From IMG/VR virus record IMGVR_UViG_3300028025_000873, positions 1 to 36,218 of that record: a stretch of DNA of 36,218 nucleotides, one strand, 5' to 3'. The first letter of the stretch is position 1, and every line of letters starts with the position of its first letter. A model generated the notes under the pieces. It ran no database searches. It had not been told where the DNA came from and worked only from the letters and a program-made list of their open reading frames with translations. The DNA comes from a virus. The position numbers and the translations under genes were made by a program. Below, one piece after another: positions 25,717-29,281 of this stretch.

Positions 25717-26158
25717 TTATGAAAGCCTCCGCAGCTTGTTGGTTAGAGTTCTCTAGTGCTTGTTGCTTGCTTGCCTTGTTTACCCAATTAGCCTTAAATC
25801 CTAGCCACCCACGGGAGCAGCACTCCATTACAGCCTCGTTTAGAGACCATCCTGCCTTGTCTGCCTCTGCCCGCAGTTGGTTAATAGCTGACTCGGTAAT
25901 AGGTGACTTCTTAGCCCTGCGGACTTCCATGTAGTCCAACCATACCTGCGGTGCTACATCATGCGGGCGTGATACTTTTGGTTTTGTATCTTTTATGATA
26001 CTTTTTGGCTCGGAGGTAACATTTATGTTACTTAGGGATAACTTTAGGAAATGCAAAGCCTGACCGCCTAAGCTGCGACAGTTCTCTGCTGCTAGGTCTT
26101 CTAGCTGTTGCCGAATCTCGGATGGTATGCGGATAGATATTGTTGTGTCGTTTTTCAT
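25709..26158 (-). CDS. RHH DNA-binding domain fused to replication-protein C-terminal domain
   Basis: 149 aa. Residues ~5-48 (TTISIRIPSEIRQQLEDLAA) are an Arc-type ribbon-helix-helix. Residues ~68-130 (VAPQVWLDYMEVRRAKKSPI, LRAEADKAGWSLNEAVMECC, RGWLGFKANW) match the C-terminal domain of many phage replication initiators and loaders. The usual version has a winged-helix or primase front end, so RHH here is a notable swap: it could bind the origin. Overlaps the DUF6475-like gene by 8 nt. Initiator role inferred. Confidence 0.75.
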   Translation of the reverse strand: MKNDTTISIRIPSEIRQQLEDLAAENCRSLGGQALHFLKLSLSNINVTSEPKSIIKDTKPKVSRPHDVAPQVWLDYMEVRRAKKSPITESAINQLRAEADKAGWSLNEAVMECCSRGWLGFKANWVNKASKQQALENSNQQAAEAFING

Positions 26159-26985
26159 TTGTCTTCCAAAGTGATAAGTTTCATTCCATATTCGTTAACA
26201 TCTGCTGAAATTAAAATATCTTGTTTACGTTTAAGTATGTTTTTTTTAAACCTCTTGTAATCAACATGGTGATGCCATCTGTTAAATCTCCACACAACTT
26301 TTGCAACGTCTGGATGCCAATCTACCAATGCTTGTGACTTTTCTAACGTCCCGTTTTTGTAAACCTCATCCGTATTACCGCCTTTCATGCGTTGGGTAGT
26401 AACCTTACCAGCCAAAAAAGCATTAAATTGAATTGTGCAATAACCATCTTTCAGCACTCGTAACGATAGGTCTGTGTCTTCGTTATATTTTCCTCGCCAT
26501 CTGTACGGTATATCGTTTTGAATCAAAATGCACGAATAAATCCTAGTGTTTAAAACATAAGGAGGTAGCTTGTCACAGGTTTTGCAAAAAGAATAGTAGT
26601 TAAAACCAGAAATTGCTACGTTCTCGTAGCGATTAACAAAGTCCTCTGCTGCCCTAAATATAGAACCAGTTAAAGCAATTGGTTTCATGTTTCTATTTAG
26701 TCTGTGGAAGTTTTCTATGTTGTCATCAAGTATCCAATGTTTTGCAGCACCAATGTTGATCGAATGATCCCAGACCCAATTCCTAGCTGGTATTGATCCT
26801 TGTCCTAAATTGCTAAACGGCAATACAAGTATTTTTTGTTGATCTATTACGGAAGCATAATTTTCGTATTCTTGAGGCTCAATCACAATTTTGTAAGGAA
26901 CATTCATTCGTTCTAAAGCCTTGCTTGTTAACCGTGTATCCCAGCGTCCTTTTGAAATAATGTAAACAGGGTAGTTAGGATTCAT
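26155..26985 (-). CDS. TET-associated-type glycosyltransferase (TAGT-like)
   Basis: 276 aa. YPVYIISKGRWDTRLTSKAL (5-24), EPQEYENY (36-43), LVLPFSNLGQGSIPARNWVW (53-72) and WILDDNI (84-90, metal-binding DDN) match the TAGT family, glycosyltransferases linked in phages to modification of 5-hydroxymethyl-type bases. NEDTDLSLR (168-176) supplies the GT-A ED motif. It lies in the early operon directly before the replication proteins and is visibly more AT-rich than its neighbours, suggesting acquisition. No TET/JBP oxygenase or hydroxymethylase is seen in this window. Substrate could be modified DNA; this is inference. Confidence 0.8.
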   Translation of the reverse strand: MNPNYPVYIISKGRWDTRLTSKALERMNVPYKIVIEPQEYENYASVIDQQKILVLPFSNLGQGSIPARNWVWDHSINIGAAKHWILDDNIENFHRLNRNMKPIALTGSIFRAAEDFVNRYENVAISGFNYYSFCKTCDKLPPYVLNTRIYSCILIQNDIPYRWRGKYNEDTDLSLRVLKDGYCTIQFNAFLAGKVTTQRMKGGNTDEVYKNGTLEKSQALVDWHPDVAKVVWRFNRWHHHVDYKRFKKNILKRKQDILISADVNEYGMKLITLEDK

Positions 26986-27652: not shown

Positions 27653-27719
27653 TTTGTTTTCCTTGGTTACTGGCGTTAGTGCCATGTATTAAATTCTACA
27701 CAATTTAGGACAGCAAAAC

Positions 27720-27787: not shown

Positions 27788-27815
27788 TTAGAGTATTGTT
27801 TTTGTCGTGTATAAT
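27788..27815 (+). promoter_or_regulatory. Candidate rightward promoter for structured RNA
   Basis: A perfect -10 TATAAT at 27810-27815 with a poor -35 (TTAGAG at 27788, 16-nt spacing). Predicted start near 27822. It leads straight into the hairpin-rich RNA that ends at 27962. A weak -35 suggests an activator or a partly strength-limited promoter. Confidence 0.5.
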
Positions 27816-27821
27816 CTCTAT

Positions 27822-27962
27822 ATCTGGTGGATTGGTAACCCATTGGTAGTTGAGTGAAACGGAGAATCCCTACTGAGGTAGGCTTCGTCAAAGCTAGAGA
27901 AGATGTCACTCCATCCCTCTATGCGGCAACCAAGCCTAAAGCCTGTCTCAGTAGGGTTTTTT
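27822..27962 (+). ncRNA. Structured small RNA with terminator
   Basis: The 3' part folds as nested stems: CCCTACTGAG (27868-27877) with CTCAGTAGGG (27947-27956), 10 perfect pairs; TAGGCTT (27879-27885) with AAGCCTA (27932-27938), 7 pairs; then TAGAG/CTCTA (27895/27917) enclosing GATG/CATC (27902/27912). TTTTTT follows the outer stem, so it is also the intrinsic terminator. A TATAAT lies just before the proposed start. I do not recognise a known RNA family; function unknown. Confidence 0.7.
27947..27962 (+). terminator. 3' arm and T-run terminating the small RNA
   Basis: CTCAGTAGGG followed by TTTTTT. The complementary arm lies 69 nt upstream at 27868, with a folded domain in between, so it is a long-range intrinsic terminator. 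Formation depends on the inner domain folding, which leaves room for regulated read-through into the rightward genes. Confidence 0.65.
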
Positions 27963-27968
27963 GTTTTG

Positions 27969-28034
27969 TAGCCTACCCGTACTCCACACGATAGCAAGAG
28001 CCTACATGGGCTGCGTGGAATAGAACATAGGCTA
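27969..28034 (+). ncRNA. Hairpin element downstream of the small RNA
   Basis: TAGCCTA (27969-27975) pairs perfectly with TAGGCTA (28028-28034); inside, TCCAC (27983) pairs with GTGGA (28015), and AGCC (27999) with GGCT (28009). Three stacked stems over 66 nt. Possibly a leader element or a second RNA domain; no known family recognised. Confidence 0.5.
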
Positions 28035-28142
28035 ACGTACACCCCGTAGCAAGCCTCGCCGACTTAAATGGGTACGGCACAAGGTATAGGGACATGGTGG
28101 GACAAGACCTATGCTGATTGAACATTAACTCCGTGTAGGACT

Positions 28143-28167
28143 GGTATATATCTCTACAGGTATATAT
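28143..28167. repeat. Direct repeat GGTATATAT, 16-nt period
   Basis: GGTATATAT occurs at 28143-28151 and 28159-28167, separated by CTCTACA. The spacing is about 1.5 helical turns. Could be paired binding sites or duplicated -10-like sequences; no -35 with good spacing was found. Confidence 0.5.
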
Positions 28168-28177
28168 GGGTCAGGCA

Positions 28178-28206
28178 GGTAAAGCGTAGGAAACTACACG
28201 CTTACC
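28178..28206 (+). ncRNA. Hairpin with GNRA (GAAA) tetraloop
   Basis: GGTA (28178), AGC (28183) and GTAG (28186) pair with CTAC (28094 of the other arm: 28194-28197), GCT (28200-28202) and TACC (28203-28206) around a GAAA loop, with an unpaired A82 and a two-base AC bulge. A GNRA loop on a bulged stem is typical of functional RNA rather than a terminator; no T-run follows. Confidence 0.5.
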
Positions 28207-28240
28207 ACCCTTGGGGAGACTATCACTCAAGATAATGCAC

Positions 28241-28592: not shown

Positions 28593-28650
28593 TATCATTT
28601 GTGCGGGGTAGTGTTTTCTGAAAACGTGCCTCAATCTCCTTGGTTCTTTA

Positions 28651-28675
28651 TCCTCACTCTTGTGGGGATTTTTTT
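28651..28675 (+). terminator. Terminator-like hairpin ending at the start codon of the next gene
   Basis: TCCTCAC-TCTT-GTGGGGA (one T-G pair) followed by seven T, then directly ATG at 28676. It has all parts of an intrinsic terminator. Its 3' arm holds GGGGA, the only ribosome-site-like sequence for the following gene. Termination and start-site masking are therefore both possible. Confidence 0.75.
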
Positions 28676-29281
28676 ATGCACACAATCGTTACGATATGTT
28701 GGGGCAATTACTGGGAGACATACGGTAAGCAATGGCTACAAGCCGCTACCGCAATCTCCGGTAAACCTGAGATTATTATTGTGTCTGACAAACCGTTAGA
28801 CACAGAGCACAAGGTCGTTATCAACACGACCAAGCACGCAGGTCTAGCTAGGAACGCAGGTATCCAAGTAGCTACGGGCGATTATGTATCGTGTTCGGAT
28901 ATAGACGATGTACCTTACACACACTATTTCGATGGTGTGGATGGTGTCCACGACATAATAGGCTTTGCGCTTGATATAGAGGGCGGTGGGCGCATGAATC
29001 CCGATCCCTATACATGGGATAGGGCTTTGGAAATAAACGCTCAAAACCCGCTTATTGTGTCCTCCGCTGTAAAACGAGAATTGTTGCTCAAACATCCATA
29101 CCGTAATGTCGGGTGGGAGGATTGGGCGCTTTGGTTAGATTTACGCAAGGCTGGTGCATCCGTCAAGTTTGATATGACACCTCGATATTTCTACAGCCGC
29201 CCTGTTGGTTCGTTAGCTACGGTTAACGCACGAGCCAAGACGGAGGAAATACGGGACATGAAACGACAAGGTGTATGGTGA
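28676..29281 (+). CDS. GT2-like glycosyltransferase
   Basis: 201 aa from ATG 28676; a longer TTG start would lie upstream of the terminator hairpin and is unlikely. MHTIVTICWGNYW, GLARNAGIQVATGDYVSCSD with DIDD (75-78) and GWEDW (146-150) are the family-2 glycosyltransferase blocks: nucleotide binding, metal site and acceptor-side acid. Short relative to usual GT2 (~250+). It overlaps the next glycosyltransferase by 7 nt, forming a pair. Target (virion protein, host surface sugar or DNA) is unknown. Confidence 0.85.
   Translation: MHTIVTICWGNYWETYGKQWLQAATAISGKPEIIIVSDKPLDTEHKVVINTTKHAGLARNAGIQVATGDYVSCSDIDDVPYTHYFDGVDGVHDIIGFALDIEGGGRMNPDPYTWDRALEINAQNPLIVSSAVKRELLLKHPYRNVGWEDWALWLDLRKAGASVKFDMTPRYFYSRPVGSLATVNARAKTEEIRDMKRQGVW

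Follow-up and report, generated by a model that had tools for sequence, protein, structure and literature searches.

Introduction

GOLLD and ROOL are phage-encoded structured RNAs of unknown function that were first found in metagenomes and that carry covarying junction-loop pairings, which proved to be intermolecular (PMC12286853). In spirit, they may be regarded as the nearest known systems to the RNA that we describe here, RNA1, which is likewise structured, encoded by phages and endowed with covarying pairings of the junction-loop type. GOLLD and ROOL often lie near tRNAs; a tRNA-Met accompanied 5 of 60 RNA1 loci scanned. However, they measure about 660 to over 800 nt and RNA1 only about 141 nt, and neither family model in Rfam matches it.

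Other phage RNAs invite comparison. The c4 and CI RNAs of phages P1, P7 and P4 are antisense RNAs, made by processing, whose target lies in the same leader. Like RNA1 they are short, linked to termination and given their specificity by short complementary segments (PMC12197685). By contrast, the complement in RNA1 lies inside its own fold, and RNA1 has no Rfam c4 match. In lambda, the promoter and terminator of the 6S RNA/tR' late leader yield a short RNA at the head of an operon. RNA1 also heads a rightward operon in the DNA analysed here, but its relatives occupy other positions, it is pseudoknotted, and no Q-type gene was identified. Because the context of RNA1 varies, we rejected a lambda-like late leader as a general explanation. 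Type III toxin-antitoxin RNAs (ToxI, AbiF RNA; PMC12373285) consist of a pseudoknotted or structured RNA followed by a terminator. We rejected this class too: RNA1 is a single unit in the aligned relatives, without tandem repeats and without a recognised toxin gene behind the terminator, where the first reliable gene is a median of 407 nt away and the genes differ.

Results

An uncatalogued RNA with an unusual terminator

The window, as we call the whole stretch of DNA analysed, is the 36,218-nt virus record IMGVR_UViG_3300028025_000873 of IMG/VR. Positions 27822–27962 of its plus strand encode a small RNA of lake-water phages that is real and had not been catalogued before (RNA1, class I). 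Its structure is near certain; its function is inferred, at roughly even odds. RNA1 is noncoding and runs for about 141 nt from an inferred +1 to the end of a U-run. It begins 7 nt after a −10 box, TATAAT (27810–27815), which we take as its own promoter, and no good −35 is present upstream in the window member. The RNA scores 124.6 bits with the covariance model and has 83 distinct relatives. Its minimum free energy is −50.3 kcal/mol, compared with a mean of −36.8 for shuffled sequences (z −3.88, none of 200 shuffles as good), and a 149-nt stretch reaches z −4.48. The minus strand folds comparably (z −4.14). Nevertheless, the promoter, the U-run and the covariation described below assign the sense to the plus strand.

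The original prediction of a TATAAT box, nested perfect stems with inner stems and a closing TTTTTT was confirmed. The perfect 10-bp stem, CCCTACTGAG (27868–27877) with CTCAGTAGGG (27947–27956), extends through two G-U pairs to AGGCTT (27880–27885) and AAGCCT (27939–27944), so that the terminator stem P2 (5' arm of 18 nt, 27868–27885; partner 27939–27956) has 18 bp in total. Inner hairpins lie within P2. The 3' arm and the U6 tract (27957–27962) together form an intrinsic terminator (27939–27962) whose U-run is in the same place in the aligned members. The further claim that this is a long-range terminator also held. P2 meets the definition of an intrinsic terminator, a GC-rich stem followed by a U-run, and is conserved. 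It does not meet the definition of a short-loop terminator, because its 53-nt loop contains a folded domain; a scan for ordinary terminators (loop 3–8 nt) therefore missed it.

The remaining elements dock that enclosed domain onto the 5' part of RNA1. Upstream of P2 is the P1 hairpin (27824–27846), formed by CTGGTGG (27824–27830), the loop ATTGGTAAC and CCATTGG (27840–27846). The P1 loop holds UUGGU (27832–27836), the 5' strand of pseudoknot PK2, whose proposed partner is ACCAA (27929–27933). Between P1 and P2 is the 5' strand of pseudoknot PK1, GAGTGA (27852–27857), a hypervariable 'barcode'. Its partner TCACTC (27906–27911) is in the loop of P3 (27893–27924), a hairpin with a GATG/CATC apical stem and a 6-nt loop. 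The P4 hairpin GGC-AACCAA-GCC (27925–27936), which carries the 3' strand of PK2 in its loop, is invariant in an alignment of 66 sequences. The overall topology is thus an 18-bp terminator stem enclosing a domain that is docked to the 5' part by two pseudoknots. These pseudoknots, like the size of the family, go beyond what had been predicted.

Covariation supports every variable helix

We assessed the fold in two class I alignments, one of 66 sequences and one, gap-free, of 13. Both support the predicted P1, P2, P3, P4 and two pseudoknots, and every variable helix of RNA1 is supported by covariation. In the 13-sequence alignment 98.1% of cells are paired, and slid structures collapse. Fourteen pairs are changed on both sides, against a shuffled mean of 5.2 (0 of 500 shuffles as many). 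The compensatory changes in both stems that the original prediction had named in advance as a check are present. In the smaller alignment both sides change in three of the six P1 pairs and in four P2 pairs. All six P1 pairs are formed in 65–66 of the 66 sequences of the larger one. Similarly, all four pairs of helix 5, in P3, change on both sides in the 13 sequences, and 89.5% of P3 cells are paired compared with 72% after shuffling.

The 6-bp PK1, between the strand after P1 and the P3 loop, is perfect in 33 of 34 sequences in a fixed register. Across these sequences 200 of 204 cells (98.0%) are paired, where shuffling gives a mean of 126 (about 62%) and a maximum of 142, and all six positions carry three or four Watson-Crick types. 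Without any alignment, the two strands of one RNA match over 6.10 nt, as opposed to 4.55 ± 0.15 nt when strands are dealt between sequences. The only non-matching class I member of the 34 (L100:1060-1207, CTAGGA with ATAACG) is possibly a recombinant.

PK2 has a different basis. UGGU in the P1 loop and ACCAA in the P4 loop are invariant in the 66 sequences, so no covariation within class I is available. We propose the pairing from this conservation and from an analogous, covarying pairing in other classes.

Covariation cannot separate pairing within one RNA from pairing between two, and PK1 is a pairing of the junction-loop type. A pseudoknot in cis is sterically plausible, with a linker of 10 nt or more. 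Linker length also correlates with stem length (rho 0.42), which we do not take as proof because the correlation is confounded by lineage.

PK1 changes faster than the rest of the RNA

In pairs of class I RNAs with no more than eight differences between them, the per-site rate of difference is 0.256 in PK1, compared with 0.051 in P3, 0.008 in P2, 0 in P1 and 0.028 at unpaired sites. Two of these RNAs (L038 and L040) differ at 4 of 148 positions, all of them in PK1 and all compensatory. Between the window and L001, four of six PK1 pairs differ and the DNA behind is 96.5% identical. Such patterns suggest diversifying selection on PK1 but do not prove it, because in some lineages PK1 is constant though the flanks differ by 5–10%.

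The class I family and where it is found

A gapped terminator-stem pattern matched seven IMG/VR contigs. The pattern GGCTTNGTCAN{28,55}GGNAACCAAGCC matched 109 stretches in IMG/VR, and on inspection all but two (L059, L081) were true members. From 106 loci (about 106 IMG/VR contigs) we cut the 83 distinct class I RNAs. They vary in length, and indels among them are not multiples of three. Applied to 84,980 species genomes of bacteria and archaea, the same pattern gave 23 matches, all of which inspection showed to be due to chance, so that class I is known only from virus contigs. The class I model found nothing in 399 Burkholderiales genomes, a weak negative since there was no positive control.

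The view that the RNA belongs to no known class stood up. For the RNA1 window Rfam returned nothing at gathering score, and only chance matches with E up to 10. For RNA1 classes I–VI no Rfam 15 family reaches gathering score; only the downstream RNA family RF02932, discussed below, and tRNA were reported. A blastn search of named phage and plasmid records found no RNA1 relative for classes I–IV, and the literature, searched in open-licence papers only, yielded no description of RNA1. Reading of sequence did reveal a divergent class II RNA in MW202674, a metagenome assembly. This deposited phage record carries both a class II RNA and RNA2 (L009:4965-5125), and minus-strand 'hypothetical protein' genes of 93–150 nt are annotated across its RNA1/RNA2 noncoding region.

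An autonomous unit in varied surroundings

A −10 box matching at least five of six positions precedes RNA1 in 78 of 82 class I loci, compared with 8% of random upstream windows, and nearly all of these boxes end 7–8 nt before the same point of the RNA. RNA1 had been placed between divergent transcripts. For the window this is correct: on one side, genes for replication and recombination point leftward and end at 27685; on the other, those for a glycosyltransferase, terminase and portal point rightward. It does not generalize, because the relatives carry RNA1 in several gene contexts with varying neighbours (their replication, recombination and terminase genes were recognised from sequence by eye, not by family search). 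The first reliable downstream gene, a median of 407 nt away, shares the strand of RNA1 in 80 of 99 loci. Moreover, an identical RNA1 occurs in two loci with non-homologous flanks (L040 and L093). Identical copies in unrelated flanks and varied neighbours together indicate that RNA1 is an autonomous unit and not the leader of one gene. A tRNA-Met was found on 5 of 60 loci scanned (L018, L043, L064, L076, L088), and none in the window.

A second noncoding stretch behind the terminator

RNA1 is followed in the window by RNA2 (W type; 27970–28225, plus strand), a conserved noncoding stretch with a diagnostic motif at 28064–28083 that is found in 78 IMG/VR contigs. It has no recognisable promoter of its own, no Rfam match and only a weak fold (z −1.58). 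Apparent compensatory changes were seen around 28064–28083 (GCCG/CGGC, GCTG/CAGC, GCAG/CTGC). Because no −10-like box was seen between the U-run and RNA2 in the sequences read, read-through is the simplest inferred source of RNA2, though an unrecognised promoter might exist.

Betaproteobacteria-1 RNA (RF02932), a different RNA from RNA1, is another RNA2 type. It was found at L048:10563-10680, L143:849-967 and L173:1051-1176, beginning in L048 just 17 nt behind RNA1. This places an orphan family in an exchangeable phage RNA locus. It is above cut-off in 4 of 399 Burkholderiales genomes, and the bacterial loci read had no class I or II RNA1 upstream. In four class I loci (L018, L023, L051, L114) a gene directly behind the terminator takes the place of RNA2. 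In L055, L047 and L113 tRNA-like pieces, T-arm and D-arm-like, lie inside the RNA2 behind RNA1; they were not called by ARAGORN.

One architecture, many sequences

Scanning for W-type RNA2 gave 58 distinct loci whose upstream sequence was long enough. Of these, 54 have a strong terminator stem and U-run 98–110 nt before the RNA2 motif, and in nearly all of the 54 a 5' segment, mostly the loop of a 5' hairpin, pairs with a segment abutting the 3' arm (7.56 nt for each RNA's own segments, 5.19 ± 0.16 nt when mispaired). The effect is also seen within classes, for which the automatic class labels used are rough. By eye there are at least six sequence classes. Class II (23 distinct RNAs) has a promoter, a 5' hairpin and a terminator stem of 20 bp, and a segment in the loop of that stem is complementary to the loop of the 5' hairpin (7.57 versus 5.15 ± 0.33 nt). 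Class IV has a second, PK1-type pairing (6.42 versus 4.44 ± 0.26 nt), and both pairings are present in L218, the single class V example. At least three classes, with no evident sequence similarity, thus have the double-pseudoknot topology.

The window's close relatives, retrieved through its glycosyltransferase gene, place these classes at one locus; the newly fetched ones gave no match to the class I model. From 27955 on, L144 shares 98.5% identity with the window, but ahead of that position it bears a class II RNA. In L001 the class I RNA is retained and window positions 28031–28218 are replaced, and in L143 and L154 both RNA1 and RNA2 are replaced. Therefore RNA1 and RNA2 reassort, with junctions at the terminator end and at the RNA2 borders, and phages that are otherwise nearly identical differ in the RNA at this site. 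We read this, from sequence comparison alone, as a putative superfamily of pseudoknot-locked terminator RNAs exchanged as cassettes; whether the classes share descent or converged we cannot tell. That the same topology recurs in dissimilar RNAs replacing each other at one locus suggests that fold rather than sequence carries the function. Because phages swap RNA1 for unrelated RNAs of the same plan, it probably has an important, still unknown job during infection.

Discussion

The RNA1 superfamily is large and well supported, and neither Rfam nor the named phage records searched contain it, except for one metagenome assembly. What is new is an RNA family and the design of its locus, not a proven mechanism. 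The recurring fold gives a direct handle on the role of structured phage RNAs, and in its segments, which change fast yet nearly always stay complementary, the evolution of RNA-RNA specificity in phages can be put to the test.

We propose, with a probability of about 0.5, that RNA1 is an autonomous terminated RNA that acts in trans and whose terminator also gates RNA2. There are no expression data, no trans target was sought, and a regulatory role is unproven. In this reading a sigma-70-type promoter belonging to RNA1 starts its transcription, and its own terminator stops it. From the sequence, P1 forms first and P2 encloses P3 and P4, with the P3 loop pairing to the strand after P1 and the P4 loop to the P1 loop. 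We infer that, during transcription of the 3' arm, the pseudoknots keep the 5' end docked on the loop, and that this hold would let the terminator close in time despite its loop of about 50 nt. The inferred product, a compact and stable molecule of about 141 nt, would accumulate and, as a structured RNA, most likely act on a partner from the phage or the host. Transcripts that read through the locked terminator may supply the promoterless RNA2, at a level below that of RNA1. Fast change in the pairing strands would prevent the RNA of one phage from pairing with the RNAs of its competitors. Unrelated RNAs of the same architecture replace RNA1 as alleles.

We rank this action in trans ahead of gating in cis, and both ahead of pairing between molecules. 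Order and spacing of RNA1, U-run and RNA2 are fixed across many classes, and the downstream gene is on the same strand in most loci (80 of 99, median 407 nt), which would suit a cis-acting attenuator: RNA1 as the 5' part of a longer transcript, controlling RNA2 and the operon behind it through a pseudoknot-dependent terminator switched by a protein, a ligand or a trans RNA, like the lambda PR'-tR' late leader or a riboswitch. This is possible, but it has to accommodate downstream genes and RNA2 types that vary, so that the constant regulated gene of a riboswitch is missing, as well as identical RNA1 copies in non-homologous contexts and RNA1 and RNA2 alleles that reassort independently; nor was an antiterminator alternative evident, although this had no systematic test. 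The rate of change in PK1 (0.256 per site versus 0–0.051 elsewhere among near-identical pairs) and the four of six pairs that separate the window from L001 over 96.5% identical downstream DNA raise instead the reading that PK1, and the P1-loop pairing of other classes, acts between molecules. Such self-recognition could build oligomers as in ROOL, GOLLD and phi29 pRNA, or serve as an immunity or incompatibility tag like c4/CI RNA, and the intermolecular junction-loop covariations of ROOL and GOLLD (PMC12286853) lend it some support. We find it rather doubtful: PK1 can plausibly form in cis (linker at least 10 nt) and stays constant in some lineages despite flank divergence of 5–10%; neutral compensatory drift with recombination could explain part of the rate, and sites outside PK1 may simply be more constrained.

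More doubtful still is an extension to a self/non-self tagging system of interchangeable, equivalent RNAs whose hypervariable segments pair between molecules. The RNA of a resident or co-infecting phage would open or close the locked terminator of an incoming relative and so gate RNA2, the effector, which would amount to RNA-based superinfection control. Phage-borne pseudo-ToxI is a precedent for RNA decoys, and RNA1 might likewise mimic an RNA antitoxin, or some other RNA that the abortive-infection proteins of the host detect. Such an arms race would fit an RNA that is pseudoknotted, carries a terminator of its own, is exchanged as alleles and varies fast, and there are Abi toxins that bind RNA and are neutralised by RNAs bearing a terminator (AbiF/RCd22, PMC12373285); yet, with no tandem repeats, no toxin gene recognised beside RNA1 and no Rfam match, a decoy seems improbable. 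Finally, short minus-strand open frames cross the region, as they might if the structure were due to chance or the region were coding. That explanation can be dismissed: the folding z-scores, the compensatory changes and the indels that are not multiples of three contradict it, and the covariation already refutes it.

Apart from RNA1 and RNA2, the window has a hairpin with a T7 run at 28650–28678 that ends immediately before the glycosyltransferase ATG, and its stem shows a compensatory change among relatives (ATCCTCAC/GTGGGGAT and GCCTAACT/GGTTAGGC). On the minus strand, positions 26155–26985 encode a TET-associated/HMC-type glycosyltransferase (Pfam TAGT), a hint that the phage DNA carries glycosylated bases.
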